Shown: one piece after another, positions 7,999 to 24,556 of the stretch
Numbering within the stretch: position 1 is the stretch's first letter
Layout: each line of letters begins with the position of its first letter
DNA from: Halopiger goleimassiliensis
GTDB taxonomy: Archaea; Halobacteriota; Halobacteria; Halobacteriales; Natrialbaceae
Reading direction: 5' to 3'
Length of the DNA stretch: 64,000 nt
NCBI RefSeq assembly: GCF_000455345.1
Contig: NZ_HG315690.1
Span: forward strand, 2,431,360-2,495,359
Program-made: the position numbers and the translations under genes
The notes under the pieces: generated by a model
Seen by the model: only the letters and a program-made list of their open reading frames with translations
The model's database searches: none
Told to the model about the DNA's origin: nothing

Positions 7999-8101
7999 GG
8001 GGCTGTTCGATAGCGCCGTCGACCCGTTCAGGAAATCGTGAGTCGCCCGACAGGTGCAGGCACGCTCGCTTTCCCCTGACCGGGACTACTGGGAGTGAAC
8101 C

Positions 8102-8539: not shown

Positions 8540-8702
8540 CCGACCGGATCCTCGTCCACAACTGCCCGCCTCGAATCGCCCGTTCGAGAACCGATTCGAC
8601 GCGTTCGTTCACCGTCGTACGCACGGCGACGGCCCGTTTTCGCGGCGTGTACGACACGTCATACGTTCGGCAGACTCTCGAAAACGATCGCGTTGGCGCG
8701 GA

Positions 8703-9536
8703 CTACGGCCGCCGAAACCGCCGTCGTGCCACCTCGAGGTCCGCCGGCGTGTTGACGTTCAGATGCCACCCCTCGAGTTCGACGCCGACGTAACGCGAGC
8801 CGCGATCGACCAGTCGCTCGAGGGCGTCCGTCAGTTCGTACTCGCCGCTCGCCGCGCGGTCGACCGTCCGACAGGCCTCGATCAGCGACGGTCCGTGGTG
8901 GGTCCGGACGCCGGCCGCGACGTAGCCACCCGTGGAATCATCGCCTCCGGCGTCGTCGCCTTCCGAGTCGAGTTCCCACCCGTCCGTCGGTGCGTCGTCG
9001 ATCGACGTCTCGAGGTGCCGTACCGTTCCGTCCGGGCCAACGTCACATCGGGCTTTCGCCGTCGCCTCGTTGCGACCGGCGCGGTCCAGCAAGATGGTGC
9101 CGTCGACGCCCGGTTCGGCGTGGTGTTCGCGAAGCCGTGAGAGGGCACAGTCGTCGAAAACGTTGTCGCCACAGACCGTCATGATGGCGTCGGGAACGTC
9201 CGGCGTCACAGCGAACGGATCCGCGCCACCGGACGGGATCGAAACGTCATACGCGTCTTCGGCCGCTCGACGGACGGCGTGAGCGAGTCCCTCTCGGTCG
9301 CGCTGGGAAGCGTACGTGACCGACGCGCCGCGAACGGAGTCACCGATCGCGTCGACGATTTCGTCGGCCCGATAACCGACGACGACCACGACGTGATCGA
9401 CCCCTGCGTCGACGACTGCGTCCAGACAGCGACGCAGGAGTGGCTCGCCCCCGACCTCGAGCAACGGTTTCGGCGTCTCGTCCGTCGCCGGGCGGAGACG
9501 CGTCCCACGGCCGGCGGCGAAAACGATCGCATCCAT
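8703..9536 (-). CDS. sugar-1-phosphate nucleotidyltransferase
   Basis: A 277-residue nucleotidyltransferase with the signature AAGRGTRLRPATDETPKPLL (7-26). R13 and K24 are at the catalytic positions, and CGDNVF supplies the metal-binding aspartate. The end WHLNVNTPADL matches glucose-1-phosphate thymidylyl/uridylyltransferases. It makes an NDP-sugar from NTP and a sugar-1-phosphate. A glycine/aspartate-rich insert (DSEGDDAGGDDSTGG) interrupts the usual DNTGY-type region. It could feed the glycosylation island from 12.6 kb, though it is not in the same operon. Which sugar is used is not decidable here. Confidence 0.88.
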   Translation of the reverse strand: MDAIVFAAGRGTRLRPATDETPKPLLEVGGEPLLRRCLDAVVDAGVDHVVVVVGYRADEIVDAIGDSVRGASVTYASQRDREGLAHAVRRAAEDAYDVSIPSGGADPFAVTPDVPDAIMTVCGDNVFDDCALSRLREHHAEPGVDGTILLDRAGRNEATAKARCDVGPDGTVRHLETSIDDAPTDGWELDSEGDDAGGDDSTGGYVAAGVRTHHGPSLIEACRTVDRAASGEYELTDALERLVDRGSRYVGVELEGWHLNVNTPADLEVARRRFRRP

Positions 9537-9670
9537 CCAACTGCTCGAGCATACGTACTCTACGCAAACGAAGGTTGTGACTGGCTGTAAACGGTAGTCG
9601 AAAACGAAGGGAACGGCGGTCGAAATCCGGATCGGTCGACGAAACGGTTCGCGATCGAAGACGGACCGGG

Positions 9671-10855
9671 TTAGCGAATGACGTCGACGCCGTTCTGTTT
9701 CTCGACTTCGCTCCGGCCGCCGTCGCTCTGGGCACCGAAGCCGCCGGCCCCCTCGACGTTGTTGCTCGCGTCGAAGTCCGTCTCGTCGATGCCTTCGATA
9801 CTCGCGCGGGACTTGTCGGCCTGCTTCTGGGTCGTCGGGCCCAGAACCTGCGCCGACTGGACGCCGGTCATGATCGCCATGACGCGGACCTTGCCCTTGT
9901 AGTTCTCCTGAATGCGCGCGCCCCAGATGACGTTCGCCGAGGCCTCGAGGCGCTCCGTGATGTTGTCCGCGATGCCCTCGGCCTCTTTGAGGGTGAGATC
10001 TGGGCCGCCGGTGATGTGGACCAGTCCGCCGGACGCGCCGCGGTAGTCGACGTCCAGCAGCGGGTGGTTCATCGCGTCCTTGACGACTTCGTCGGTCTTG
10101 TTCTTGTCCTGGGTCTCGCCGACCAGCATGACGGCGACGCCACCCTGGTTCATGATCGTCGACATGTCGGCGTAGTCCAGGTTGATCAGGGAGGGCTGGG
10201 TAATGGTCTCCGAGATTCCCTTGACGGTCTCGGCGATGATCTGGTCCATCACCGAGAACGCCTTGCCGATCGGGAGGTTCGGGACGTAATCGAGCAGTCG
10301 GTTGTTGTCGAGCACGATGATCGAGTCGGCCTGCTCGCGCAGTTTCTCGAGGCCTTCCTCGGCCTTCACCGTGCGGGCACGCTCGACGTTGAACGGCGTC
10401 GAGACCATGCCAACGACGATCGCGCCCTGCTCTTTGGCGATCTTCGAGACCACGGGGGCCGCACCGGTACCGGTGCCACCGCCCATCCCGGCGGTCACGA
10501 ACACGAGGTCCGCGTCGCCGAGGACCTCCTTGATCGTGCTCTGGGCCATCTCGGTCGCGCGTTCACCCATCGACGGGTCGCCACCGGCACCGAGGCCGTT
10601 GGTCAGCGACTTGCCGACCAGGATCTTCGTATCGGCCTCGATCATCTTCAGGTGCTGTTTGTCCGTGTTGATCGCCACGGTGTCAGCGCCGTCGACGCCG
10701 ATGTTGTACAAGCGGTTGATCGTGTTGTTCCCGGCACCGCCACAGCCGACGATGACGATCCGCGGGTCGCCGAACTCGTCGCCGTCGAGTTCGGCGTCCA
10801 TCTCGCGGGCCTCCTGTTCGGCGTTCTCGAGTGCGTCTTGAACGATATCCTGCAT
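9671..10855 (-). CDS. ftsZ2: tubulin-like cell division GTPase FtsZ2
   Basis: A 394-residue FtsZ. The tubulin signature is GGGTGTG (125-131), preceded by [16 protein letters not shown]. The T7 loop is in [12 protein letters not shown]. The N-terminal extension [20 protein letters not shown] and the adjacent ribbon-helix-helix genes identify it as FtsZ2 rather than FtsZ1. It polymerises with GTP at midcell, where haloarchaeal FtsZ2 acts in ring constriction. The C-terminal tail is glycine-rich and ends [11 protein letters not shown]. Its start lies two bases after the cdrS stop, so it is co-transcribed with cdrS from the promoter near 11190. Confidence 0.96.
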
Positions 10856-10857
10856 CG

Positions 10858-11043
10858 TTACACCTTGGCCCAGTTGCGCTGTTGTTTACCGGACTGCTCG
10901 GTCTGTCCATCGTACTGTTCGTTGATCATCTCACGGACGGCCGACCGGATCGCTTCGCTCCGGTTCGGGAACTCGCCCGAGTCGACGAGTTGTTCGACCT
11001 CCTCGATCTGCTGTTTCGGGATTCGCAGTGTCACACGCTCCAT
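10858..11043 (-). CDS. cdrS: ribbon-helix-helix regulator CdrS
   Basis: A 61-residue ribbon-helix-helix protein. The strand [19 protein letters not shown] is followed by helices with [20 protein letters not shown]. It matches CdrS, the short regulator encoded just upstream of ftsZ2 in Halobacterium and Haloferax, where it controls division genes. Such proteins bind DNA as dimers through the N-terminal strand. A second in-frame ATG at 11058 would add MGNTT; I prefer 11043 because the RHH strand begins there. A leader of roughly 120 bases with GTAAGAC dyads precedes it. Confidence 0.9.
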
Positions 11044-11060
11044 GGTTGTATTCCCCATTG

Positions 11061-11228
11061 GTAAGACGGCGCGCCCCTGTCAGACGCGGCGTGTCTTACA
11101 GCGGAAACGCCCTGTGACGGGCGATTTCGTCGTCATACGCCTGCTGTAAGACGACCGTCTTACGCGAGTAAACGGATTAGCAGCTTGGATAATAAAAGTT
11201 TCGTCAGACACGACTGTTCGTGTCTTAC
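11061..11228 (-). promoter_or_regulatory. cdrS-ftsZ2 promoter with GTAAGAC dyads
   Basis: On the minus strand a TATA-like CTTTTATTATC (about 11188-11198) points to a start site near 11165. Three dyads share the half-site GTAAGAC/GTCTTAC. They are 11203-11228 (11-bp arms, one mismatch, upstream of TATA and overlapping the cdrL stop), 11146-11163 (GTAAGACGGTCGTCTTAC, 8-bp arms around two bases, on the start site) and 11079-11099 (GTAAGAC then GTCTGAC). A lone half-site lies at 11061-11067. The two flanking genes encode RHH regulators, so these are their likely operators. Confidence 0.7.
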
Positions 11229-11815
11229 GACGGTCGCGAACTCCGACTGTCGGACTCCAAGACGTCCGCCGCAGGGGTCCGCCGGCCACAGCTGGGACAG
11301 AACGCCCAGTCCGACCGGAGTTCGTCCCCACACTCACAGAACAGTCGTCGCGAGGTCTTCTCCCCGCAGTTCGGACAGTACACGTGCTCGCCCGCGACGT
11401 GTTCGCCACACTGGTTACACCGCGTGACGTCCGCGTCCGCGCGCGAGCGATCGGTCGTAGTCGTCCGATCGTCGACGGCCGACGGCTCCCGGACCCGGGC
11501 GTCGTCAGACACCTGGCCGTCGACCCCCTCGAGCGAGATCGTGACGTTGACGTCCTGCGTCTCAGGTGTGTGCGTACGCGGTTGCCGTCGGGGATCACCC
11601 AGCCGCTCCCCGAGCAGGTCGTCGACGCGTTCGCGGACGAGGTCATCGATCGTCGTGTCCGACGCCTCCCGTTCCACGCACTCGTCGGACGCCTCCTCCG
11701 AGGACTCCCCGAGGTACGCCCGCAGGGCCTCCCGCATCGCCTCGCTCTTGGAGACCTCGAGCGCCTCGAGTTGCTCGACGAGATCGTCGTCGGCGCGGAA
11801 CGTGATCTTGCTCAT
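11225..11815 (-). CDS. cdrL: RHH plus double zinc-ribbon regulator CdrL
   Basis: A 196-residue protein. The N-terminal RHH domain (MSKITFRADDDLVEQLEALE...SEAMREALRAYL) is joined by an acidic linker to two zinc knuckle pairs, CNQCGEHVAGEHVYCPNCGE and CECGDELRSDWAFCPSCGRR. This matches CdrL, the long partner of CdrS, reported in Haloferax to bind the cdrS-ftsZ2 promoter. The ATG at 11815 is preferred over one at 11830, because the TATA-like GATTGAAATAGG at about 11845-11853 predicts a start site near 11824. It is followed directly by the cdrS promoter dyads. Confidence 0.88.
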   Translation of the reverse strand: MSKITFRADDDLVEQLEALEVSKSEAMREALRAYLGESSEEASDECVEREASDTTIDDLVRERVDDLLGERLGDPRRQPRTHTPETQDVNVTISLEGVDGQVSDDARVREPSAVDDRTTTTDRSRADADVTRCNQCGEHVAGEHVYCPNCGEKTSRRLFCECGDELRSDWAFCPSCGRRTPAADVLESDSRSSRPS

Positions 11816-11939
11816 GCGACTCGATGCCATTCTATTGGAAGGCCACCTATTTCAATCATTCCACTGTTCGGGACGGTTCGGACTCGTCGTTGCGAATGAT
11901 AACCCTTATGTCTCCCACAGCGGCTACGTTGAGGTGTAA

Positions 11940-12013
11940 CCGCCCTTAGCTCAGACTGGTAGAGCAGCCGACTGTAGATCGGCTTGCCCCCCGTTCAAAT
12001 CGGGGAGGGCGGA
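11940..12013 (+). tRNA. tRNA-Tyr (GTA)
   Basis: A complete cloverleaf of 74 bases. The acceptor stem CCGCCCT pairs with AGGGCGG, the D arm is GCTC/GAGC, and the anticodon loop CTGTAGA sits between GCCGA and TCGGC, giving anticodon GTA. The T arm is CCCCG-TTCAAAT-CGGGG. There is no encoded CCA and no intron. A TATA-like CCTTATG at 11904-11910 lies at the right distance upstream. A long inverted repeat follows immediately at 12016. Confidence 0.97.
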
Positions 12014-12015
12014 CT

Positions 12016-12063
12016 TTTCGTGATTCCAACCGACGAGCGAAGCGAATCGCCGGAATCACGAAA
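12016..12063. repeat. 12-bp inverted repeat after tRNA-Tyr
   Basis: Arms TTTCGTGATTCC (12016-12027) and GGAATCACGAAA (12052-12063) are perfect and enclose a 24-base loop with CGAGCGAAGCGAATCG. It begins three bases after the tRNA, on a TTTT run, so it may help end the tRNA transcript or mark an old insertion edge. The rest of 12064-12131 shows repeat-like sequence (GCGCGAACGCAGTGAGCGCG) and no gene. Confidence 0.55.
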
Positions 12064-12131
12064 CGGATATCCCGACACGATTGCGTCAGTCGCAGCGCGC
12101 GAACGCAGTGAGCGCGACCGTCTGGCATCTA

Positions 12132-12150
12132 TTCAAATCGGAGTGGGCGG
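12132..12150 (+). repeat. partial copy of tRNA-Tyr 3' end (att-like)
   Basis: TTCAAATCGGAGTGGGCGG matches the T-loop to acceptor end of tRNA-Tyr at 11994-12012 in 17 of 19 positions. It is in the same orientation and 138 bases further on. The sequence before it is unrelated to the tRNA. A displaced tRNA 3' end is what tyrosine-integrase elements leave behind, but no integrase gene is in the interval. Between here and 12263 I see only a TTAAGG-G-CCTTAA palindrome (12228-12240). Confidence 0.45.
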
Positions 12151-12263
12151 GCGTCCTCCGGAGCTCTAACAAGCCGCTGTCACTACCATACTGTCGTATA
12201 CACGGCGCTCGAAGCCCTGCACTACGTTTAAGGGCCTTAATCGAACGTGACTCGAGTCGCCGA

Positions 12264-12422
12264 TCACGCTATATCCCCCTCGTTCAGCGCAGCCGTTTCG
12301 GAGACGACGAACTTCGCGAGCGTCCGTTTCGAGTGCGATCCCACGAGGTGATCCTCGAGTCGCTGCTCGGCCGGGACGACCGTATGACAGAGCGGACACT
12401 CGACCGGTGGTCGGGATGCCAT
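12264..12422 (-). CDS. small C2H2-type zinc-finger protein
   Basis: A 52-residue protein read directly from the minus strand. It opens MASRPPVECPLCHTVVPAEQ and has C9, C12, H25 and H30, the spacing of a single C2H2 finger (C-x2-C-x12-H-x4-H). An alpha-helical C-terminus ends in NEGDIA. A TATA-like AACTTTTCC on the minus strand (about 12444-12452) is placed for a leaderless start at the ATG. It lies 144 bases downstream of aglB on the same strand but probably has its own promoter. A nucleic-acid or protein-binding role is the family norm; no target is known. Confidence 0.72.
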   Translation of the reverse strand: MASRPPVECPLCHTVVPAEQRLEDHLVGSHSKRTLAKFVVSETAALNEGDIA

Positions 12423-12566
12423 ACCGTACACAGCCGGATGACGAGGAAAAGTTCCGGGCCGGCACTCGCGGCCAGCGATACTGATCGGCCGTCGACAAAC
12501 GAACGTGCGACCGAGCAGCGAGACTCGCCGTGGGACGGAAAACGGGCCGTCGGATCGCCCGGTCAG

Positions 12567-15557
12567 TTAGGCGTCGCCGGAATCGGTTTCGTCGTCGGCA
12601 GCCGTCTCGTCGCCTCCGTCAGCGTCCGAGGACTCGTCCTCCGAGTCCGTCCCGTCATCTGCGTCGTCGCCGGATTCCCCGTCGGACGTGTCGACTGGCT
12701 CGAGGTCGACGTCGATCTCGCCACCCTCGACGACGTCGGATTCGGGGACCGAAACCTCGCCTTCGTAGACGGTGCCGTCGTCGGTCGTGACCACCACGGT
12801 GTACGCTCCGAGCGCTTCGACGGCGCTGTCCGTGTAGCCGTCCTCGACGTCGAGTTCGTCGTTGGTGGCGTAGGGGACGGTCAGCTCGAAGCTGCCGTCG
12901 GCCTCGAGCGAGACTTGCTGGCTGTAGCTCGTGTTCGAACCGCCGTTGGTCTGGAGGCCGAGCGCCGCCGTCACAGTCCCCTCCTCGGCTCCGTCGACAG
13001 CGCCGGTGAGCGTCGCGCCTTCGACGCGCTCGTACGTCTTGACTGCAGGTTCCTGGCGGACGTCGAAGACTTCGTACGTCGGACTCTGGGTGAGTTGCTG
13101 GTACTCGGCCTGCTCCGACCGATCGAACATATTGAACTGCCGGTTGACGACGACGATCGGTTGGCCCTGTCCGGGCGGTGCGATCTGCCCGTCGTCCGTG
13201 ACGTGCGTGACGTCACCGTCTTCGTAGCCGGCCGCCTGGTAGGCCTGCAGGAGCTGTTCCATCTGGGGATCCTGCTGGGCGGCCTGTTCGTAGTAGTCCT
13301 CGTCGAAGACGTCGGCGTAACTCGCGTACATCGACCGGTTGATGCCGTTCTCGTGGACGAGCCGGTAGTGTTCCATCCCGTCGGCGTCGTCGAAGTACAG
13401 CTGTGCCACCGTCGTGTTGTCGTACGGGAGGTCGCCGTAGATGTCGCCGACGTTGTCCCGGGTGACCGTCTCCTCGAGCGTGTCGGGCGTCGTGTAATAC
13501 TGGTAGTCGGGACCCGTCCACTGGGTGATCGCCGGGAACTTGTCGCCGGCCATCGCGTCGTCGATCATGACGTACCGGATCTCCTCGTCGGTGTTTTCGG
13601 CCGCGTCGACGATGTCACGGAGTTCCTCGTTCGTTTCCTCGTCGGGCTCTGCCCCCGTCGATATCGCCTCGAGGATCAGTTCGGCACGCTCCTCCGACTC
13701 GGCAGTGAGATAGGCAGAGGACGACTCCGCGTGTTGCTGGAACGGGTTCGAGTGCGGGATGCGTTCGGCCTGCGTCGTTATCAGGTGGCCGTAGTCCCAC
13801 CACGAGAGAACACCGTATGCGCCGTCTGGGTAGTCGTAATCCTCCCCTTCGGGGTAGTCGTAACTTCCGAAATACTCGAGTTCGGACGCGTTATCGGCCC
13901 CACCCCAATCGCCGGGTTCGGGCGAGTTGTCCGCGAGCCACTCGTTGGACTCTTGCCAGACGATCGAGTCACTGCTCGGGTTGGAGTTCGGCCCGAGTTC
14001 GGACTGTTCCCAGACGGGGCCGCCGGTTGCCGTCGCGGCGATCGGCGGCAACAACGGAGCGAACAGTAGTAAGACGATCATGAACACCACGATGATCTGA
14101 TACCCCTGAATCCGTCTGAGCGACGCGAGTGAGTCGCCGAGATCGAGGTTGACGAAGCGGGCGACGTCGGCGACGAAGACGGCATTGACGGCCGCGATCG
14201 CGAGAACGAGATAGTACGAGAACCGGATCTGTGTCGCGGCCATACTGGTCAGGAAGAGCGACCAGACGATCACCAGCGTATACTCGGTCCGGTATTCACG
14301 ACCGACGTACGGCCGCGCCGCGAGCAGAATCAGGCCGACGACCATCGTATAGAACGCCGCACCGTACTCACTGAACACGTACGTCGTGAGGAAGTCGGTC
14401 GGTTGCTGGGCTTCCTGAATCGTCGCCCGATGATCGGCCGGATCGAGTGGCATGATCCGTCCGGTCGCCTCGCTAACGAGCCGATCGAACAGGTCAGGCA
14501 TAACGACCGCCAGTGCGCCGAGCGCAAGGACGATCAATCCCAGCACAGCGACGGGGTAGTATCGCCTCTCGATTCCTCGGGTGTCCCACTGTCGTGCCAG
14601 CCAGGCCATCGTCACGAATCCGCCGACGCCGAGAATCGCCAGTGCCGGCTGAATGTAGCTGAAACTCGTCACGCTGAATCCGGGATCTTCGATCAGCAGG
14701 AGCGTGATAACTGCCGTGACGCCGAAACTCACCGCGCCGACGAACGCCAGGTGGTCCGGCGAGACGCCACGGAGATAGTCGATACAGAGAGCGACGATGA
14801 AGAACACGCCAAAGATACCGACCAACAGCACGGCGGGAGGCCACACCCAGATATACAGCGCCAGCGCCAGCCCGGCGAGTGCACTGTATATCGTCGGCGA
14901 TCTGAGAGCGTCCCAGTCACGATCGACGAGCAGTTCGTAGATCGGCTGTTCGCGTTCGCCAGCCCGGACCGCAACCATCATCGCGAGGACTGCGATCGAC
15001 ATGAACAGCACCTCCGCAACGTGGTGCTGGAGTTGGCCCGTCGTCGTCCGGTGGAGGAACTGCCCCGGGAGCAACGCGAGAACGAACACGGACGCGATAC
15101 CGCCCATCGTTCCCCCGAGTCGACGCCCGATATAAAACACGGGGATCGCCACGAGGGCGGCCATCACCGGCACCGCGAGAAGGGAGACGGTAAACAGCGT
15201 CTCCGTCGACGGATCGCCGAGACCGACGATCATCGCCGCCGTGACGATGAGCTGGTCGAACAGGGTCCCGAACTGGCCGACGTAGTCCCCCGTCGGGAAC
15301 CCGGTCCAGATCTCGTACGGCATCGTCCACGGGTAGTTCTGGGACGTCCATTCGACCGTTCGCCAGTGATACCAGGAGTCGATCGCTGCAAAGGCAGGAC
15401 TCCCGTCCTCCGTCACGAAATTCTCGTAAGGGAGGATCCGCACCAGGAACATAAACAGTACCACGGCCCCGACGATGGGGATGTGATACCACTCCCTCCA
15501 GGTTTCGAGGAAGGACGTCTCGGTCCCCTCCTCGATACGTTCAGTGTCCGTACTCAT
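12567..15557 (-). CDS. aglB: oligosaccharyltransferase AglB
   Basis: A 996-residue membrane oligosaccharyltransferase of the STT3 family. It transfers lipid-linked glycans to Asn in N-x-S/T on the outer face. About 13 hydrophobic helices fill the N-terminal half. The first loop carries the catalytic-type aspartate in FAAIDSWYHW, and the catalytic WWDYG motif lies near residue 586 at the start of the extracellular half. The C-terminus ends in a Ser/Asp/Glu-rich tail of about 50 residues. The ATG at 15557 (MSTDTERI) is preferred to one two codons earlier. Its promoter faces that of the aglG-like gene. Confidence 0.96.
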   Translation of the reverse strand: MSTDTERIEEGTETSFLETWREWYHIPIVGAVVLFMFLVRILPYENFVTEDGSPAFAAIDSWYHWRTVEWTSQNYPWTMPYEIWTGFPTGDYVGQFGTLFDQLIVTAAMIVGLGDPSTETLFTVSLLAVPVMAALVAIPVFYIGRRLGGTMGGIASVFVLALLPGQFLHRTTTGQLQHHVAEVLFMSIAVLAMMVAVRAGEREQPIYELLVDRDWDALRSPTIYSALAGLALALYIWVWPPAVLLVGIFGVFFIVALCIDYLRGVSPDHLAFVGAVSFGVTAVITLLLIEDPGFSVTSFSYIQPALAILGVGGFVTMAWLARQWDTRGIERRYYPVAVLGLIVLALGALAVVMPDLFDRLVSEATGRIMPLDPADHRATIQEAQQPTDFLTTYVFSEYGAAFYTMVVGLILLAARPYVGREYRTEYTLVIVWSLFLTSMAATQIRFSYYLVLAIAAVNAVFVADVARFVNLDLGDSLASLRRIQGYQIIVVFMIVLLLFAPLLPPIAATATGGPVWEQSELGPNSNPSSDSIVWQESNEWLADNSPEPGDWGGADNASELEYFGSYDYPEGEDYDYPDGAYGVLSWWDYGHLITTQAERIPHSNPFQQHAESSSAYLTAESEERAELILEAISTGAEPDEETNEELRDIVDAAENTDEEIRYVMIDDAMAGDKFPAITQWTGPDYQYYTTPDTLEETVTRDNVGDIYGDLPYDNTTVAQLYFDDADGMEHYRLVHENGINRSMYASYADVFDEDYYEQAAQQDPQMEQLLQAYQAAGYEDGDVTHVTDDGQIAPPGQGQPIVVVNRQFNMFDRSEQAEYQQLTQSPTYEVFDVRQEPAVKTYERVEGATLTGAVDGAEEGTVTAALGLQTNGGSNTSYSQQVSLEADGSFELTVPYATNDELDVEDGYTDSAVEALGAYTVVVTTDDGTVYEGEVSVPESDVVEGGEIDVDLEPVDTSDGESGDDADDGTDSEDESSDADGGDETAADDETDSGDA

Positions 15558-15581
15558 TAGCATGCACCAGACCCATGCGGG

Positions 15582-15711
15582 GAATAAGCCTTGTCATCTA
15601 TCCGCGACGTATGGCGGCCCGCGAGACAGTCAGGGATCACAGGAGAACACCGACGAGCCGACCGCTGCACGTGACGAGATCCGGCCACCACTCGAACGAA
15701 AAGGCTTATTC
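15582..15711. promoter_or_regulatory. divergent aglB / aglG-like promoters with identical boxes
   Basis: The same 11-mer AAGGCTTATTC occurs on the minus strand at 15592-15582, facing aglB, and on the plus strand at 15701-15711, facing the aglG-like gene. Each contains a TATA-like GCTTATT centred about 26-30 bases from the respective ATG, so both transcripts should be nearly leaderless. The identical boxes suggest matched expression of the two genes. The 108 bases between them hold no gene. Confidence 0.65.
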
Positions 15712-15736
15712 GCCGACCACGGGAATCGGTCGGACG

Positions 15737-16711
15737 ATGAAGGTCTCCGTCGTCATCTGTACCTACGCGATGGACCGCTACGACGTCTTTTCCGAATGCG
15801 TCGATAGCGTCCTCGCTCAAACGTACGAGCCGCTCGAGGTCGTCATCGTCGTCGACGGAAACGAGTCGGTCTTCGACCGCGTCTGTGAGGAGTACGGTGA
15901 CCGCGAGGGCGTCGTCCTCCACTGCAACGACGAGAACCAGGGAATCTCCTACAGTCGAACGCGGGGAGCCGAACTCGCGACCGGCGACGTCGTGGCGTTC
16001 ATCGACGACGACGCGGTCGCCGAACCCGACTGGATCGACGAGTTGGTGCGCGTCTACGAGGACACCGACGCAATCGCGGTCGGCGGCCACGTCAAACCCG
16101 ACTGGGTGACGGAGAAACCGGACTTCTTCCCCGAGGAGTTCTACTGGCTCGTCGGCTGTGACGAACGCGGGTTCGGCGAACACATGGAGGAACTGCGGAA
16201 TACGTACGGCTCGAACATCTCCTACCGCCGAGACGTGTTTCTCAACGTCGGTGGCTACGACGAAAACACCGGTCGGAAAGGCGATCGCCACATTCAGGCC
16301 CACGAGGCACCCGTCTGTATTCGGATCGCGAACAAGTACGGTAAGGGCGTGATTTACAACAAACGGGCGGTGGTGCACCACAAACTGTTCGACTATCGGG
16401 GCGACTTCCGCTGGCTGGTCGGCCGGTCGTTCTGGCAGGGGTACTCGAAACGCATCATGGACCTGCTGTTACCCGAGGCGAAAGGCGACAAGAACGAGTA
16501 TCTGAAGCAGTTGTTGCTCGAGTTCGTCCCACTACGGCTGTGGGACCTGGTTCGGTCGCCATCGAAGCCGGAAGCGAAACAACTCGTCACTGTTTTCGTC
16601 TTTACCGCGGCTGTCGGCTTCGGCTATCTGTACGGGTTGCTGGACGTCGATCGGTCGGAACTTCGCGGGGAGCAACCGGCAACGCCACCGGCCGATCCAT
16701 CCCAACAGTAG
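15737..16711 (+). CDS. aglG: GT2 glycosyltransferase, AglG-like
   Basis: A 324-residue family 2 glycosyltransferase. The N-terminal GT-A fold opens VSVVICTYAMDRYDVF, and the DxD-type site is FIDDDAV (near residue 95). One hydrophobic segment near the C-terminus (TVFVFTAAVGFGYLYGLL) may anchor it to the membrane. Sequence feel and its place next to aglB match Haloferax AglG, which adds glucuronic acid to glucosyl-dolichol phosphate. The sugar specificity here is inferred. The start ATG fits the promoter at 15701. Confidence 0.85.
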   Translation: MKVSVVICTYAMDRYDVFSECVDSVLAQTYEPLEVVIVVDGNESVFDRVCEEYGDREGVVLHCNDENQGISYSRTRGAELATGDVVAFIDDDAVAEPDWIDELVRVYEDTDAIAVGGHVKPDWVTEKPDFFPEEFYWLVGCDERGFGEHMEELRNTYGSNISYRRDVFLNVGGYDENTGRKGDRHIQAHEAPVCIRIANKYGKGVIYNKRAVVHHKLFDYRGDFRWLVGRSFWQGYSKRIMDLLLPEAKGDKNEYLKQLLLEFVPLRLWDLVRSPSKPEAKQLVTVFVFTAAVGFGYLYGLLDVDRSELRGEQPATPPADPSQQ

Positions 16712-17048: not shown

Positions 17049-18035
17049 ATGCGTATTCTCGTCACCGGCGGCGCGGGGTTCATCGGCGGCCACCTCGCGG
17101 AGCAATTCGTTCGAGACGGGCACGACGTCGTCGTACTCGACACGCTGGATCCGTTCTACGACGTCGGAATCAAGGAACGGACGATCGACGTCGCTCGAAC
17201 CGCCGCCACGCGTGGTGACGGCCAGTACGAATTCGTCGACGGGAGTATTACGGATGCAGAACTGGTTTCCGACGTCGTTGCCGACGTCGACGTCGTCTTC
17301 CATCAGGCTGCACAGGCCGGGGTACGGACGAGCGTCGATAATCCGGAGAAGACGACGCGGATCAACGTCGACGGGACGTTTACGCTCCTCGAGGCAGCGA
17401 GGGAACACGGGGTCGACCGATTCGTCAACGCCAGCTCCTCCTCGGTCTACGGCAAGCCCGAATACTTACCGTACGACGAGGACCATCCGACGAACCCGGT
17501 CAGTCCGTACGGCGCGTCCAAGGTCGCCGCCGAACACTACGCACGCGTCTATCACGAGGTGTACGGACTCCCGACCGTTTCACTGCGCTATTTCACGGTC
17601 TACGGTCCACGCATGCGTCCGAACATGGCCTTTACTAACTTCGTCTCACGGTGTCTCCACGGCGAGTCGCCCGTGATCTACGGCGACGGCTCGCAGACCC
17701 GGGATTTCACCTACGTATCGGATGTCGTCGATGCGAACCGACGGCTGCTGGAGACGGACGCCGCCGATGGCGAAGTCCTGAACATCGGTTCGACGGGGCG
17801 GATTACGATCGAGGAACTCGCACAGGTCATCCGGGACGAAATCGATCCGTCGATCGGGATCGAATACGGCGATCCGCGAGAGGGAGATGCGGAACACACC
17901 CACGCCGACGTCTCGAAGGCGACCGAGTTGATCGGCTACGAACCGAACGTCTCGATCAGGGACGGTGCGAAACGGTTCGTCGAGTGGTATCGAGAAAACG
18001 AGGACTGGTACGATCCCCTGGTTCGCCGATCGTAG
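17049..18035 (+). CDS. NAD-dependent epimerase/dehydratase (extended SDR)
   Basis: A 328-residue extended short-chain dehydrogenase. The NAD site is TGGAGFIGGHLAE (6-18), the active site is Y-x3-K in SPYGASK, and the substrate-domain motif LRYFTVYGPRMRPNMA follows. It resembles UDP-glucose/UDP-glucuronate 4-epimerases. With an AglG-like glucuronosyltransferase next door, UDP-hexuronate epimerisation is a reasonable but unproven role. It starts a run of six plus-strand genes that continues to 24556. Confidence 0.88.
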   Translation: MRILVTGGAGFIGGHLAEQFVRDGHDVVVLDTLDPFYDVGIKERTIDVARTAATRGDGQYEFVDGSITDAELVSDVVADVDVVFHQAAQAGVRTSVDNPEKTTRINVDGTFTLLEAAREHGVDRFVNASSSSVYGKPEYLPYDEDHPTNPVSPYGASKVAAEHYARVYHEVYGLPTVSLRYFTVYGPRMRPNMAFTNFVSRCLHGESPVIYGDGSQTRDFTYVSDVVDANRRLLETDAADGEVLNIGSTGRITIEELAQVIRDEIDPSIGIEYGDPREGDAEHTHADVSKATELIGYEPNVSIRDGAKRFVEWYRENEDWYDPLVRRS

Positions 18036-18113
18036 GCCCCGACCGCGAGCGGACGACACCGAACGGGAGAACGAAGCCTATAACCCATCACCGCGGGAAT
18101 CTCGGCCAACGGG

Positions 18114-19064
18114 ATGAGCAACGGCGACGGACTTCGCGTCCTCCACCTGGTAACGGCGAGAGAGATCTTCTTCGATCAGCAGATCGAAACCCTCGAGCGA
18201 AAGGGTATCGAGTGTACGGTCTGTGTCGTTCCCGGTGCGGAACAGATCGACGGCGACATGGGTACCCGTCGGGGAGTCAAAGAGTATCTCCAGTATCTCC
18301 CCCGCGTCCGCAGCGAACTCCGGAACGGGGACTACGACCTGATTCACGCAAACTACGGCCTGACTGCCCCGTACGCGATCACACAACTTCGACTTCCAGT
18401 CGTGTTGACGCTGTGGGGGTCGGACGTCGTCGGCTTCGACGGCCTCGTCACGAAAGCCTGTGCCTGGCGCTGTGACGCCGTGACCGTCCGCAGCGAGGAG
18501 ATGCGGGAGTTGCTCGGGAAAGACGACGCGTACATCGTCCCCAGCGGCATCGACCTCGAGAAGTTTCGCCCGATCGATCGGCAGGAAGCGAGGCGTCGCG
18601 TCGGCTGGGACACCGACGGGACCCACGTGCTGTTTCCCTACTCGCCGGAGTACGAGCGGAAAAACTATCCGCTGGCCGACCGCGTCGTGAACGGGGCCGA
18701 ACGAGAACTGGGAACGGAGATCACGTTACAGACGATCTCCGGTGTCCCCCACGAGGAAGTGCCGTATTACGTCAACGCGGCCGACGTGATGTTGCTGACC
18801 TCCGACCACGAGGGGTCGCCGAACACGGTCAAAGAAGCGATGGCGTGTAACGTCCCCGTCGTGTCTACCGACGTCGGTGACGTCCGGGAACGACTCGAGG
18901 ACGTTTCTCCGTCGGGAATCGGAACGACCGAGTCGGAACTAGTCGATCGACTCGTTACCGTGTTGCGCGCCGGTGAGCGATCGAACGGCCGCGACGCCGC
19001 CCGCGAGGTAAGCTGGGACCGGATCGGTGATCGTCTGATCGACATTTACGAATCCGTCTTGTAA
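18114..19064 (+). CDS. GT4 family glycosyltransferase
   Basis: A 316-residue GT-B glycosyltransferase. The acceptor half has DLIHANYGLTAPYAI and LWGSDVVG. The donor half has the E-x7-E motif in EGSPNTVKEAMAC, followed by VPVVSTDVGDV. Such enzymes add an NDP-sugar to a lipid-linked or glycan acceptor at the cytoplasmic face. A TATA-like GCCTATAACC (about 18077-18086) sits upstream of the ATG. It belongs to the glycan-assembly group with its neighbours; the sugar is unknown. Confidence 0.88.
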   Translation: MSNGDGLRVLHLVTAREIFFDQQIETLERKGIECTVCVVPGAEQIDGDMGTRRGVKEYLQYLPRVRSELRNGDYDLIHANYGLTAPYAITQLRLPVVLTLWGSDVVGFDGLVTKACAWRCDAVTVRSEEMRELLGKDDAYIVPSGIDLEKFRPIDRQEARRRVGWDTDGTHVLFPYSPEYERKNYPLADRVVNGAERELGTEITLQTISGVPHEEVPYYVNAADVMLLTSDHEGSPNTVKEAMACNVPVVSTDVGDVRERLEDVSPSGIGTTESELVDRLVTVLRAGERSNGRDAAREVSWDRIGDRLIDIYESVL

Positions 19065-19195
19065 CAGGAACCTACGCGGTGGCACGATTCGAGCAGGGAC
19101 TGCACACCCCACTGCGGCGCACCATGTGACGCTCTTCGCGGCTCCGCTCGTCCGTATCCAACAACTATTTTCGTTTCCACTGGACCTGTATTCAC

Positions 19196-21016
19196 ATGCC
19201 CGGAGTGACGGTCGTTGCCGGCCCCGAACGTCCACGTTCGTCGACTCTCGAGTCCGCCCACCGGCCTTGCCACTACGACGATCGGTACGCGTACCGAACG
19301 TACGACGGGGCGTCGTCAGCGCTCGTGACGGCCCGGTATCCGGCCTATCCGTTCGAGAGGATCGAGTTCGAGTCCGCGGAAACGACGGTTACCGTCGAAG
19401 GGGTCGTCTACAACCGGGATACGGACACTCTCCGAACGGAGATCGAACGCCATCTGGTCGGCGGAATCGACGTCGAAGACGTGTCCGAGTGGCTGGCGGA
19501 ACTCGACGGGGAATTCGTCTTCTACGTCCGGGACGACGCTCGTAACGAACTAACGATCGTACCGGATTTGCTCGGCCAGCTCCCGCTGTTCTACGCGACC
19601 GAAACGCCCGGGTACGCGGTAGTCGGACGAAACAAGTTCGTACTGTCCCGCCTCGTCGATTCGCCCGCACTCGATCGCCTAAGCGTCGCACAGTACCTTC
19701 GAATCGGATACACGTTGACCGGCCGAACCCTGTTCGAAGACGTCCGACGGGTCCCCGATGGAACGATCGTTCGAATCGACGCCGACACGGGAACACTCGA
19801 ACTCGAGCGGCACCACCAGTTCGACTTTTCGACGGAATCGAACGAGGAGCGATCGGTCGAATCGAACGCGCGGACGTTGGCAAAGAGATTCACTGCAGCA
19901 GCGCGTCGACGGGCAGCTTCGTGTCCGGGAACGAACGCCCTGTTGTTGAGCGGGGGGCTCGATTCCCGGGGCGTGATGGGCGCGTTCGAACGTGCCAACG
20001 TCGAGTACGTCGCTGCAACCCGTGACTTCGAACACGACTCCCGGGCGGACATCGAAGTCGCAGAAGAACTGGCCGCTGCAGTCGACGCCGATTGGAAGCG
20101 AATCGACACGCCCGCACCGACGGGCGCGGACCTGCTCGATCACCTCGACATGACCGCGGGGACAGACCCGTTCAACATCGCCCACATCCAGCCGTTTCTC
20201 AGGCGGGTCCGGTCTCACGCCGGCGAGTCGGTCTGGATGTATACCGGTGACGGTGGCGACAAACTCCTCCCCGACCTGTCTCCGCGCGTCGAACTCGAGA
20301 CGCGCTCCGATCTCGTCGACTACATCCTCAGGACCGAATCACAGTACGACGCCGCCGACGTCGAAGCGATGACCGGCGTCCCCGACGCCGAAATCAGGTC
20401 CGCAGTTCGGTCCCAACTCGAGGGGTATCCGGAGTCGACGCTCACGAAGCAGTATCTCCACTTCGAACTGTTCGAACGTGGGTTTTCCTGGCTGTTCGAG
20501 GCAACCGATACCAACCGCAACCACTCGTGGACGACGTCGCCGTACTACGCACTCGACGTCCTCGAGTACGCGATGAACTGCCCCGACGAGCAAAAACGGC
20601 GGTATCGGCTGTTTACCGCATTTCTCGAGGAACTCTCGCCGGAGTTGACCCGGATTCGCAACGCGAACGTCGGTGCGGCACCGGCGAGTCGGTCACATAC
20701 AGTGCGCTACTCGGTTCACGACGTACTGTTGCGGTATCCAAGAGTTCTCGATCGCGTACTCCCGCTCGTCAAACGGATGCTCGGCACCAAAACCGATTCG
20801 GACCCGAGTCCCGCTATGATCTCCTGTATCCGCGAACAACTCGAGCAAAACTCGAGTACCGCGATCGATCTCGAGGGTACGAAAGCGACTCTCCTCGAAA
20901 ACCCGACATCGTACTCGCGGTACAATCTGTGTCTAGCATTCACACTCCTGTCGGTATTGGATCAGTGGTCGGGGACGGACGTGCTGGAGGACTATCGGAA
21001 CGTTGAGTTCGGATAG
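19196..21016 (+). CDS. asparagine synthetase-like protein lacking the glutaminase Cys
   Basis: A 606-residue protein with the two-domain AsnB plan. The N-terminal half keeps glutaminase-like pieces (EGVVYNRDTD, ELDGEFVFYVRDD) but begins Met-Pro-Gly instead of Met-Cys-Gly, so the N-terminal nucleophile is absent. The synthetase half has a clear PP-loop, LLLSGGLDSRG (near 250-259), and a second site SVWMYTGDGGDKLL in place of GEGADE. It could amidate a carboxyl using free ammonia, or ligate another amine. AsnB homologues in bacterial O-antigen loci amidate uronic acids. The leaderless start is backed by a TATA-like CTATTTTC at about 19166. Confidence 0.85.
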   Translation: MPGVTVVAGPERPRSSTLESAHRPCHYDDRYAYRTYDGASSALVTARYPAYPFERIEFESAETTVTVEGVVYNRDTDTLRTEIERHLVGGIDVEDVSEWLAELDGEFVFYVRDDARNELTIVPDLLGQLPLFYATETPGYAVVGRNKFVLSRLVDSPALDRLSVAQYLRIGYTLTGRTLFEDVRRVPDGTIVRIDADTGTLELERHHQFDFSTESNEERSVESNARTLAKRFTAAARRRAASCPGTNALLLSGGLDSRGVMGAFERANVEYVAATRDFEHDSRADIEVAEELAAAVDADWKRIDTPAPTGADLLDHLDMTAGTDPFNIAHIQPFLRRVRSHAGESVWMYTGDGGDKLLPDLSPRVELETRSDLVDYILRTESQYDAADVEAMTGVPDAEIRSAVRSQLEGYPESTLTKQYLHFELFERGFSWLFEATDTNRNHSWTTSPYYALDVLEYAMNCPDEQKRRYRLFTAFLEELSPELTRIRNANVGAAPASRSHTVRYSVHDVLLRYPRVLDRVLPLVKRMLGTKTDSDPSPAMISCIREQLEQNSSTAIDLEGTKATLLENPTSYSRYNLCLAFTLLSVLDQWSGTDVLEDYRNVEFG

Positions 21017-21076
21017 CAGTAGCAGTGGCTAACCTGGAAGGAAATGCTTACGACGAAGAGTTAACTGTGGTAGAAC

Positions 21077-22120
21077 ATGGCAATTCCGATCCGGACCGGG
21101 ATACGAAAACTCCGAGAGGAAGGAATCGGCCCGTTTACTGCCCGAACGTGCCAGTACCTCGGCCTCCCGGTTTGGAATACGATCACGTCCCGTTATCCAA
21201 CCGGAACGAACGTCTTCGAGCGGGAGTGGGATCTCCTTATTGTCCTCGATTCGGGGCGTGTGGATGCGTTTCGCGAGGTCGCCGAGTCGACGGTTCTACC
21301 CGAAGAAATCGGACAGATCCGATCTGTGGGGAGTGCCTCCTCAGAATGGACCTTGCAGACGTTCAGGGAGGAATTCCGCGACGAAATCGAGAAGACGGCA
21401 CTCGTCACTCGTAACGGATGGCCCGACCACGTACTCGCCGAAAACCTCCACAACGATGAAGAGAACTTCGAAAGTCAAAGCCAGCGTGGATTCCCCAACT
21501 GGTCTCCCGTCTCGTCCGATGCGTTCGCCCACTACGAGCGGATTCAGTCGGTCGCGAATCAGGACGATCGAATCCATCCCCAGAGTTCACACGTTCCACA
21601 TATCCTCACTGATCGAGCGATTTCCATAGCTCGGCGGGAAGAGTTCGATCGGATGATACTCTGGTATATGATGCCACACTATAAGTTTATCGCGGACGCG
21701 CTTGACTGGACGCCAGGAGAGCACTCGATCGAGGAGTTGATGGACGGTCTGGAGCCGACCCGGCACCTCCGTCCCGAGGAAGAATCGTACGGTCCCGCGA
21801 GACGTGGCGAGGTATCGGCCGAGAAGGTCCGGGAACTCTACGTAGCGAACCTTCGGTTGGTCCTCGAGTATATCGAGGTTCTGCTCGAAAACGTGGATGC
21901 TGAACGCGTCGTCATCAGCGCAGATCACGGTGAAGCACACGGAGAGAAGGGAGTGTGGTCACATCCCTTCGGATGGCCGTTCGCACCGGTCAAAACCGTC
22001 CCCTGGGCGGAGACGACGGCAACCGACGAGGAGACGTACGAACCCAGGTACGAGGCGCTAGAACGGGAGGTCAACCAAGAAGAACAGAAACAAATCCTCA
22101 AAGACCTGGGGTATCTGTAA
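21077..22120 (+). CDS. alkaline phosphatase superfamily (sulfatase-like) protein
   Basis: A 347-residue protein with the ends of the alkaline phosphatase fold. A metal aspartate lies in WDLLIVLDSGRVDAF (near 51-65). The C-terminal metal site is VVISADHGEAHGE, with a further histidine in WSHPFG. Members act as sulfatases, phosphodiesterases or phosphoglycerol/phosphoethanolamine transferases. Cytoplasmic forms without a signal are common in haloarchaeal glycan loci. The N-terminal 50 residues are basic and lack a signal peptide. A TATA-like ATGCTTACG near 21048 fits a leaderless ATG. It may trim or decorate the glycan; the substrate is unknown. Confidence 0.8.
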   Translation: MAIPIRTGIRKLREEGIGPFTARTCQYLGLPVWNTITSRYPTGTNVFEREWDLLIVLDSGRVDAFREVAESTVLPEEIGQIRSVGSASSEWTLQTFREEFRDEIEKTALVTRNGWPDHVLAENLHNDEENFESQSQRGFPNWSPVSSDAFAHYERIQSVANQDDRIHPQSSHVPHILTDRAISIARREEFDRMILWYMMPHYKFIADALDWTPGEHSIEELMDGLEPTRHLRPEEESYGPARRGEVSAEKVRELYVANLRLVLEYIEVLLENVDAERVVISADHGEAHGEKGVWSHPFGWPFAPVKTVPWAETTATDEETYEPRYEALEREVNQEEQKQILKDLGYL

Positions 22121-22199
22121 CTGCAATGAGGATCCGTGAGAGGACCAGTTGATAACCGGTTCCATTTTCAGCCTGCTCACTAACTATTCGAATACCTAT

Positions 22200-23036
22200 A
22201 TGGAGATCTCTCTACGGCGAATTACACACGAATATCGGAAGGCGGGACTGCTTCATCTACTCACTGGTGGGATAGAAGCCGCCACGATCGAATTACTTTC
22301 TAGGGTGCCACGAATTTATTGGAAAGCCGTTCCCAAGTATTACGAATGGCGTTCGTCGAACGATATCTATGACTACGAGTATCCACCCCACCCGTTCAAG
22401 ATCGAATACGTAAATCCGGATGACATCAGGAGAGTAACCGATCGATCGAACAAAGATGTGAACAGACGACTAAAGTTCGGCGCAGTCCGAGACGGTTCCT
22501 GGGATCAGACGGGCAAGAAGTTCACAGACCAGGAAGTATATAAAATAGCCAAGGAGCACTTTGTAGAGGGACGGCCATGGGAGGAAACGACCATTTATCC
22601 ACGGTTGGTAAAGAAAGCAGAAAATGACGAGTACAGTACGTGGAAATACACCTCCCGAGAGGACGTTCTGAACCATCTCGAGCGATTCGATAGCTTATAT
22701 CATCGGATCGAAACGAACGGATACCACCAACAACGAGACTTACTTGAAGGTCCGAAAGGCGCAACGGGCGGTATCTTTCTAGAAACCCTGGATGAGGTAA
22801 CGGTCGACGTCGGTCGTGATGGTGAGTTGCTGTTTGCTGATGGGTTACACAGACTCGTAATTGCAAAGCTACTCGAACTGGATTCGATACCTGTCGTCTT
22901 CCTGGTTCGGCATCCGCACTGGATGGAAACACGCGATCGCATCGCCTCTGGAAACGATATTCCGGATCATCCCGATCTCAGAGACCTCACGCGGGAGACG
23001 CCGAAAGACCGATGGAAGCCGAACGTCGGTGATTGA
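22200..23036 (+). CDS. ParB/sulfiredoxin-like domain protein of glycan locus
   Basis: A 278-residue protein with unusual, AT-richer codon use. The C-terminal third contains GELLFADGLHRLVIAKLLEL followed by IPVVFLVRHPHW. This resembles the nucleotide-binding DGHHR patch of ParB/sulfiredoxin-fold domains, some of which are kinases or nucleases. The rest is a charged, aromatic-rich region I do not recognise. The ATG at 22200 (MEISLRRI) is chosen over an in-frame TTG at 22149. Base composition and codon use unlike the flanking genes suggest transfer into the locus. No function is assigned. Confidence 0.75.
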   Translation: MEISLRRITHEYRKAGLLHLLTGGIEAATIELLSRVPRIYWKAVPKYYEWRSSNDIYDYEYPPHPFKIEYVNPDDIRRVTDRSNKDVNRRLKFGAVRDGSWDQTGKKFTDQEVYKIAKEHFVEGRPWEETTIYPRLVKKAENDEYSTWKYTSREDVLNHLERFDSLYHRIETNGYHQQRDLLEGPKGATGGIFLETLDEVTVDVGRDGELLFADGLHRLVIAKLLELDSIPVVFLVRHPHWMETRDRIASGNDIPDHPDLRDLTRETPKDRWKPNVGD

Positions 23037-23113
23037 AACGGCCTTTCCACCCCTAGTAACCGGCTACGAGAATGTACGTGACTTGAAGTAGCTCGACTGC
23101 TGAACTGGAGGTA

Positions 23114-24556
23114 ATGAAGGTCGGGCAGAGTTCTGCCGTATACTTTTTTTCGAAATTCAGCTCGTCGATCATCGGTTTCGCCGCTACCTTCTACATCGCC
23201 CGAGTTCTCGGGGCGAGCGGGTACGGAAGCTATACGCTCGCATTGACCGTGCTCGCCTGGCTGAAAATCGGCGGCCGCATCGGGTTGGGTTCGGCGATTA
23301 CGAAGCGAATGAGCGAGGGAGACGAGCCAGCGGCGTATTTCGTTACCGGATTCGGGATGATGGCTGCCGTATTCGCGATTGCCGCCACGCTCGCGCTCGC
23401 GTTTCGAACCCCCATCGAAAGCTACGTCGGAGCGTCAGTGCTCTCGATCCTGCTGGTGCTTTTGGGTGCCGAACTCTTCCGATCGTTCACCGCTGCCGCA
23501 CTCAAAGGACAGCACCTCGTTCACGTCTACGCCGTTCTCGACCCGATCAACGTCACGGCTCGGAGCGTCCTTCAGATCGGGATCATCGCCGTCGGCTTCG
23601 GAGTCGGTGGACTGCTGGCTGCGTACGCGTTCGCTTCCGTGGCTATCGGACTGGTAAGCCTGATTTTCCTCTCGGTCGGCCTCGCACGGCCGACCGTACG
23701 ACACGCCAGGAGCCTCTTCGACTACGCGAAGTACGCCTGGCTCGGTAACCTGAAGAAAATGTCGTTTAGCTGGATCGACGTCACCGTCCTCGGCTTTTTC
23801 GTCTCACAGTCGCTCGTCGGAATCTACTCGATCGCGTGGAGCGTCGCTGCGCTGCTGACGATCTTCAGCAAGGGAATCAGCGAGACGTTGTTCCCCGAGA
23901 TCAGCAAACTCTCGACGCGTGACGACCTTTCGATGGTCCAGAATCTCGTCACCGACTCACTCCGGTACAACGGACTGTTCATGATACCAGGACTGGTCGG
24001 CGCTGCAATCATCGGCGAACGCGTCCTGTTGATCTACGGGCCGGAATTCGTCGGCGGTGCGACAGTACTTATCATCCTGATCTTCGCCCGAACGATCTAT
24101 AGCTACCAGAAACAGCTCGTCAACACGATTAACGGACTCGACAAACCGAACATCGCGTTCCGAATCAACGCAGTTTTCGTCGTCGTGAACGTCGTTTTCA
24201 ACGTCGTGCTCATCTGGCAGTATGAACTACTGGGCGCAGCAGTCGCGACGGCGCTCGCAGCGACGGTGAGTCTCGGCTATGCTTACGTGGCGCTCGAGGG
24301 ACTCCTCGAGTTCGAGATTCCTATGATCGACGTCGTCCACCAGTGTCTGGCTGCCCTCGTAATGGGTCTCGCTACCTATGGGCTCGCTACGTTGGCACCG
24401 CCGATGGAGGACTCGGTTTCCGGCCACTTGATTACGGTCGCGATCATCGGCATCGGCGCGGGGATCTACTTTCTCACGTTGCTTGCCATTTCGAGTCAGT
24501 TCCGATCGACCGTCGAACGAAACCTCCCGTTCGACGTGCCGGCGATCGGCCGGTAG
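23114..24556 (+). CDS. oligosaccharide flippase (Wzx/MATE-like)
   Basis: A 480-residue membrane protein with about 14 hydrophobic helices. The N-terminus reads YFFSKFSSSIIGFAATFYIARVLGASGYG, typical of the polysaccharide flippase family. It should move dolichol-linked glycan to the outer membrane face for AglB, as AglR is proposed to do in Haloferax. A strong Shine-Dalgarno-like GGAGGT sits just upstream of the ATG (about 23107-23112). This is unusual among the leaderless genes around it and suggests internal translation in a polycistronic message with the gene before. Confidence 0.92.
   Translation: MKVGQSSAVYFFSKFSSSIIGFAATFYIARVLGASGYGSYTLALTVLAWLKIGGRIGLGSAITKRMSEGDEPAAYFVTGFGMMAAVFAIAATLALAFRTPIESYVGASVLSILLVLLGAELFRSFTAAALKGQHLVHVYAVLDPINVTARSVLQIGIIAVGFGVGGLLAAYAFASVAIGLVSLIFLSVGLARPTVRHARSLFDYAKYAWLGNLKKMSFSWIDVTVLGFFVSQSLVGIYSIAWSVAALLTIFSKGISETLFPEISKLSTRDDLSMVQNLVTDSLRYNGLFMIPGLVGAAIIGERVLLIYGPEFVGGATVLIILIFARTIYSYQKQLVNTINGLDKPNIAFRINAVFVVVNVVFNVVLIWQYELLGAAVATALAATVSLGYAYVALEGLLEFEIPMIDVVHQCLAALVMGLATYGLATLAPPMEDSVSGHLITVAIIGIGAGIYFLTLLAISSQFRSTVERNLPFDVPAIGR

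Follow-up and report, generated by a model that had tools for sequence, protein, structure and literature searches.

The locus described here lies in a 64,000-nucleotide stretch of haloarchaeal chromosome from Halopiger goleimassiliensis (contig NZ_HG315690.1, positions 2431360-2495359; hereafter the window). There, the oligosaccharyltransferase gene aglB is read from the minus strand, and a divergent plus-strand run carries aglG, a short-chain dehydrogenase/reductase (SDR) epimerase gene, a glycosyltransferase family 4 (GT4) gene, and genes for an asparagine-synthetase-like (AsnB-like) protein, an alkaline-phosphatase-superfamily (AlkP-like) protein, a ParB-like protein and a flippase, with gaps of 28-337 bp between the plus-strand genes (Table 1). 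This is the set that the original prediction, made from the letters of the window, had named beside aglB and an aglG-like gene, and we found every member of it at about the predicted positions. Our results favour, on balance, the view that the region is an aglB-anchored N-glycan assembly and tailoring island working by the full scheme proposed below; that the island serves N-glycosylation, whatever its exact chemistry, is very probable. Indeed, AglB and AglG are both present according to their profile scores, with a Wzx-type flippase in the same locus, and aglG is the sole gene above the NF041394 cut-off in its own genome.

How general is this arrangement? We took the 18 kb on the 5′ side of aglB from 60 other genomes and, after gene calling, assigned labels using profiles of the window proteins. 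A good aglG match was found in 48 of these loci and a flippase in 46; between the two, we observed AlkP-like genes in 30 loci, ParB-like genes in 21, epimerase genes at the level of orthologues in 10, GT4 orthologues near aglG in 9, and AsnB-like genes in 5. The order aglB, aglG, variable genes, flippase is recurrent in Natrialbaceae, with the families of the window shuffled among the loci, and the aglG-to-flippase cassette is a hypervariable slot in this group. The family cut-offs and this recurrent slot support the glycan-tailoring island that had been predicted.

Two of the shuffled families are concentrated at aglB. Genome-wide, at least 127 ParB-like and at least 255 AlkP-like copies were counted in these same genomes; 33 of the former lie within 18 kb 5′ of aglB (0.58 expected) and 55 of the latter (1.1 expected). 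The sampled genomes are related, so that p-values overstate this clustering; counted by genus, the aglB-linked pattern appears in 12 of 22 genera for the ParB-like family and in 13 of 22 for the AlkP-like family. Because both families concentrate at aglB, the lack of co-occurrence that the original prediction had named as its own refutation is not what was found for them. The expected co-occurrence did not extend to the AsnB-like subfamily of the window: among its close relatives (E <1e-60; 32 other hits, in about 30 other sampled genomes) we saw none in the 18 kb 5′ of aglB. The nearest is about 19 kb away, and we dropped the idea that this subfamily co-occurs with aglB. At aglB, the ParB-like and AlkP-like families tend to exclude each other, with both present in 5 of the 60 loci (Fisher p 0.006, or 0.04 without the largest genus).

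A cassette of this kind could make another surface polysaccharide or a glycolipid and merely lie beside aglB. The same families do accompany flippases and glycosyltransferases at sites distant from aglB, where the AsnB-like subfamily of the window is usually found. However, many genera keep the slot in the same position, from aglB-aglG to the flippase, and AglG works solely on the dolichol-linked N-glycan, so we regard this explanation as rather improbable and retain the N-glycan island. Within the cassette the base composition is not uniform. Against a G+C content of about 0.65 for the window, the AlkP-like gene has 0.57 and the ParB-like gene 0.49, and third-position G+C, about 0.8-0.9 in the flanking genes, falls to 0.66 and 0.54, respectively. 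Because of these drops, the sequence suggests that the AlkP-like and ParB-like pair (21077-23036) was recently acquired.

Table 1. Features of the aglB locus, with positions in the window.
Feature	Position	Strand	Evidence
AglF-like UTP--glucose-1-phosphate uridylyltransferase relative	8703..9536	-	NF041313 196 bits, residues 1-93 only, cut-off 400
aglB, oligosaccharyltransferase	12567..15563	-	TIGR04154 834 bits; Pfam STT3, AglB core, AglB_L1
Probable divergent promoter region, aglB to probable true aglG start	15564..15736	.	Inference from NF041394 match start
aglG, glucosyl-dolichyl-phosphate glucuronosyltransferase	15737..16711	+	NF041394 equivalog 534 bits, cut-off 440
SDR epimerase, probable UDP-glucuronate 4-epimerase	17049..18035	+	197 bits to 6zl6
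GT4 glycosyltransferase	18114..19064	+	Pfam GT4/GT1 domains
AsnB-like putative amide ligase without glutaminase Cys2	19196..21016	+	Pfam Asn_synthase, GATase_7
Alkaline-phosphatase-superfamily protein, probable Agl30/Agl31-type sulfotransferase	21077..22120	+	AlphaFold (AF2) model; EptA Z 14.7
ParB/sulfiredoxin-fold protein, unannotated haloarchaeal family	22149..23036 (likely true start 22200)	+	AF2 model, GxHR motif
Wzx/MurJ-type flippase, far end of cassette	23114..24556	+	Pfam Polysacc_synt_3 (63 bits), Polysacc_synt

The AlkP-like protein of the window matches no Pfam family, and 14 of 30 relatives give a weak match to Pfam Sulfatase. Its AlphaFold model (predicted local distance difference test score, pLDDT, 79.5) has the phosphoethanolamine transferase EptA as best match (Z 14.7, 3.4 Å over 213 residues), with sulfatases within 1 Z unit. 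Six residues, D58, S88, H201, D283, H284 and H296, do not vary in 30 of 30 sequences; they occupy the metal and nucleophile positions of the alkaline phosphatase superfamily, whose metal ligands are all present. In a profile alignment the last four fall on the His, Asp-His and His of EptA, with a common Asp-His-x11-His spacing; D58 and S88 are assigned putative catalytic roles from their place in the modelled fold. The formylglycine motif (C/S)-X-(P/A)-X-R of type I sulfatases is absent from the sequence, the invariant S88 being followed by x-E-W-x. In view of this absence and of the precedent described next, we abandoned a function as phosphatase or formylglycine sulfatase.

In Halobacterium salinarum, the aglB cluster encodes VNG1056C and VNG1057C, which carry an alkaline-phosphatase-domain annotation and are proven N-glycan sulfotransferases; they are now named Agl30 and Agl31, and when expressed in Haloferax they sulfate its glycan (PMC11980604). 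AlkP-type proteins are therefore a known part of the Halobacterium pathway (PMC11980604), and not the undescribed component that had been supposed. Relatives of the window protein with 29-33% identity lie near aglB in three loci (L213, L221 and L231) whose genus is probably Halobacterium; in one such locus the relative stands right next to another gene, this one sulfatase-like, and to a flippase, AglJ is also there, and the whole resembles the published order of H. salinarum. The L231 locus (8003-13158) carries three AlkP-superfamily genes, two of them overlapping, an arrangement resembling that of VNG1056C, VNG1057C and VNG1063H.

Because the AlkP-type proteins of the H. salinarum aglB cluster are sulfotransferases, sulfation is the likeliest role for the AlkP-like protein, and sulfate is more likely than phosphate as its group; by this analogy we lean slightly towards a sulfotransferase. 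The sulfate handling proposed at the outset is thus plausible by way of these enzymes (PMC11980604). An EptA-like phosphotransferase or a phosphodiesterase would account for the best structural match and for the shared Asp-His-x11-His spacing; but sulfatases score at most 1 Z unit away, and the H. salinarum proteins in the equivalent position transfer sulfate, so that this second reading appears unlikely. A search of the own genome for the Sulfotransfer_3 family (PF13469) found none, other sulfotransferase families not having been searched.

The truly new item of the island, and one worth following, is the ParB-like protein. Based on its sequence and alignment, it likely starts at the ATG at 22200 and not at the TTG at 22149. 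None of 33 family members matches Pfam ParB at E 0.01 or any other Pfam family, a single one matches the SerK profile, weakly (E 0.0011), and in those plasmid records that carry annotation the genes are labelled hypothetical protein. The AlphaFold model (pLDDT 83.7) gave Foldseek matches, with E values from 0.04 upwards, to sulfiredoxin, SbnI, Noc, ParB, KorB and SerK, those below 0.2 being sulfiredoxin (Srx), SbnI, Noc and ParB; structural comparison reached Z scores of at most 5.3 over about 77-95 residues. In the PDB, the profile matched SbnI serine kinases and nothing else, with an E value of 0.7. The protein has a G-x-H-R loop as in SbnI, in which G232 is kept in 31 of 33 members, H234 in 32 and R235 in all 33, preceded by an Asp in just 10 of 33; Trp118, Asp119, Trp144, Arg223, Arg254 and His255 are invariant.

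The presence of ParB, Noc and KorB among the fold matches could indicate a ParB relative that acts in DNA binding or regulation and takes no part in glycan chemistry. However, the model contains neither the helix-turn-helix nor the dimerisation domain that a canonical partition ParB would have after the fold; the copies concentrate in glycan loci, and the nearest sequence leads are the serine kinases SbnI and SerK. We hold a DNA-binding role to be very unlikely, and a partition function was dropped in view of the 0 of 33 Pfam ParB matches and of the lack of any domain past the fold. Of 292 Halobacteria sampled, 109 carry the family, in up to 10 copies per genome; two genomes of the same phylum outside this class carry it too. 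Away from aglB, most of the copies examined lie near flippase, GT4, epimerase or annotated glycosyltransferase genes, and some do not. Searches of genome contigs returned nothing, whether made with the alignment, which offered no conserved stretch, or with a single protein, and phage records gave no match.

These features suggest that the ParB-like protein is probably a nucleotide-using glycan-tailoring enzyme. That it is specifically kinase-like is a tentative idea, and we consider it a long shot that the ParB/sulfiredoxin-fold family forms a new class of cytosolic kinases or nucleotide-dependent transferases phosphorylating lipid-linked surface glycans as an alternative to AlkP-type sulfation. 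Such an alternative would fit the tendency of the two families to replace each other at aglB.

The AsnB-like protein starts with MPG and keeps the ATP loop SGGLDS. In an alignment with 23 relatives, the Cys2 of glutamine-dependent class II amidotransferases was found in 0 of 24 sequences (Val or Pro stands at position 2), and the SGG-DS loop of the asparagine-synthetase-fold ATP ligases in 24 of 24. As a control, the canonical asparagine synthetase encoded elsewhere in the same genome starts with MCGI and keeps its Cys2. Profile comparison with the PDB ranked a hydroxyamidotransferase, asparagine synthetases and a beta-lactam synthetase highest. Since Cys2 is missing while the ATP loop is kept, we consider an amide ligase acting on a free amine more likely than a WbpS-type uronamide synthase dependent on glutamine; for a glycan amide ligase as such we see about an even chance.

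The amidation of a uronic acid had been a central element of the original prediction; read as the glutamine route, it would have a glutamine-dependent amidotransferase make a hexuronamide and the AlkP-like protein add or remove phosphate. Bacterial AsnB-like WbpS enzymes do make uronamides in glycans (PMC7468200), and a uronate step of the AglG type is present. But Cys2 is absent in 24 of 24 sequences, although ammonia from another source would still be compatible, and the window protein scores 62.8 bits against TIGR03108, the family that includes WbpS, well short of its cut-off of 816.9. We thus dropped hexuronamide synthesis from glutamine as the lead idea, as Cys2 is never found, and now consider it improbable; amide formation is possible, by a route other than glutamine. 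Overall, the earlier observation is confirmed and its interpretation is half right. A precedent for an amino-acid substituent on a uronate exists in the Methanococcus N-glycan, where threonine is carried by N-acetylmannosaminuronic acid (ManNAcA); the enzyme attaching the threonine in Methanococcus maripaludis was unidentified as of a 2010 review (PMC2952790).

The close relatives of the AsnB-like protein are encoded in other loci, many of which also hold a flippase and four of which hold the GT4 of the window. The AsnB-like genes of the 5 aglB loci belong to a distant group that also lacks Cys2, and in two of them the gene directly adjoins a ParB-like one, with the flippase alongside. Because the two genes overlap or abut there (L103, 7700-10428; L113, 7583-10309), the arrangement suggests that the AsnB-like and ParB-like proteins act together. 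A parallel trio away from aglB was seen on the Natronorubrum daqingense plasmid NZ_CP019328.1 (69-75 kb; L162 and L193), where a Cys2-less AsnB-like gene adjoins an AlkP gene of the Phosphodiest family and a flippase; the archaetidylserine decarboxylase of a sorting system is encoded nearby.

The remaining parts of the cassette are more conventional. The epimerase aligns over its full length with PDB entry 6zl6, which we take to be the UDP-glucuronate 4-epimerase of Bacillus cereus (RYFTVYGPRMRPNMAF in the window protein against RYFTVYGPRQRPDMAF). Alignment to 6zl6 and to its Tyr-to-Phe form 6zlj shows the equivalents of Tyr149 and Arg185 to be kept, with the motif RYFTVYGPxxRPxMA. A Y149F form of UDP-glucuronate 4-epimerase has been described (PMC7984243), in line with the identity of 6zl6 and 6zlj, and Arg185 is the carboxylate-binding residue of this enzyme (PMC12338863). 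On these residues, the SDR enzyme can be assigned with good confidence as a UDP-glucuronate (UDP-GlcA) 4-epimerase; genes of the UDP-glucose dehydrogenase type, required for UDP-GlcA, exist in the own genome. The flippase had been counted outside the described pathway, which proved wrong: AglR and Agl15 serve N-glycosylation in Haloferax (PMC3871713) and Agl29 belongs to the aglB-cluster pathway of Halobacterium (PMC11980604), so that it is an ordinary pathway component without novelty.

The longest aglG open reading frame opens at 15575, 11 bp from the aglB start. Because the NF041394 match begins at Met55 of this frame, the true start is most likely 15737; an annotation taking the longest frame (15575-16711) would carry a wrong start. 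Behind ftsZ, about 3 kb from aglB, lies the AglF-like nucleotidyltransferase gene, an intact single frame that scores below the AglF equivalog cut-off.

From the gene content, the folds, the catalytic residues kept or lost and the recurrence at aglB, we infer the following chemical steps and their order. AglG would extend a dolichol-phosphate-linked hexose with glucuronate, the SDR enzyme would interconvert UDP-GlcA and UDP-galacturonate (UDP-GalA), and the GT4 enzyme would probably add the third sugar. Three cytosolic enzymes would then tailor the glycan on its lipid carrier. Sulfate would probably be transferred by the AlkP-superfamily protein, the Cys2-less AsnB-like protein would probably adenylate the carboxylate of a uronate and join it to a free amine, and the ParB/sulfiredoxin-fold protein would probably be a modifying enzyme that uses ATP or ADP. 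Finally, the flippase would move the lipid-linked glycan outward and AglB would transfer it to surface proteins.

Several points weigh against this scheme. The AlkP-like, ParB-like and AsnB-like genes were found all together in 0 of the 60 aglB loci, unlike in the window, and the three families are also present in other glycan loci, so that they are not dedicated to N-glycans. The homology of the AlkP-like protein to Agl30 and Agl31, drawn from relatives of probably the same genus, from position and from fold, is a strong lead and not a proof, and the window protein has no transmembrane segment, whereas Agl30 is membrane-bound. Moreover, no glycan structure exists for H. goleimassiliensis.

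Haloarchaeal N-glycans vary like bacterial serotypes, and the enzymes that make this variety are known in few species. The locus shows a possible origin of the variety, a fixed slot running from aglB-aglG to the flippase into which tailoring genes are swapped. Our analysis names an unannotated family, the ParB-like proteins, as likely tailoring enzymes, and suggests that many species possess equivalents of the AlkP-type sulfotransferases newly described in Halobacterium. For amide-linked substituents on uronates, the glutaminase-free AsnB-like ligase is a candidate enzyme type. Among the papers searched, we found none that describes the AsnB, AlkP and ParB mix.

Comparison with known systems places the three tailoring candidates as follows. 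The ParB-like protein shares the ParB/Srx fold, the GxHR loop and the lack of a helix-turn-helix with the free serine kinases SerK and SbnI and with sulfiredoxin, but differs from them by an insertion of about 120 residues after the first strands, by extra N-terminal helices and by its glycan-locus context. The AsnB-like protein resembles the bacterial uronamide synthases WbpS and WbqG in being an AsnB-like ligase whose gene neighbours a flippase gene within a glycan locus, with uronic acids as substrates in the bacterial case; unlike them, it has no Cys2 and falls far under the TIGR03108 cut-off. With the beta-lactam synthetase and the hydroxyamidotransferase (1jgt and 7ylz), which are among its best PDB profile matches, it has in common the AsnB fold and the SGG-DS ATP loop, whereas overall sequence similarity is low and context and substrates differ. 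Of the complete pathways, those of Haloferax volcanii (the aglB cluster and Agl5-Agl15) share with the window AglB, AglG, an AglF-like protein and flippases (AglR, Agl15); they differ in that AglP methyl-esterifies the hexuronate, and the descriptions we found contain no AlkP-, AsnB- or ParB-like component. The aglB cluster of H. salinarum (Agl25-Agl32) has the aglB anchor, a step of the AglG type, the flippase Agl29 and AlkP-superfamily tailoring proteins (Agl30, Agl31), as the window does, and the window carries instead a UDP-GlcA 4-epimerase-like SDR enzyme, an AsnB-like ligase and a ParB/Srx-fold protein.

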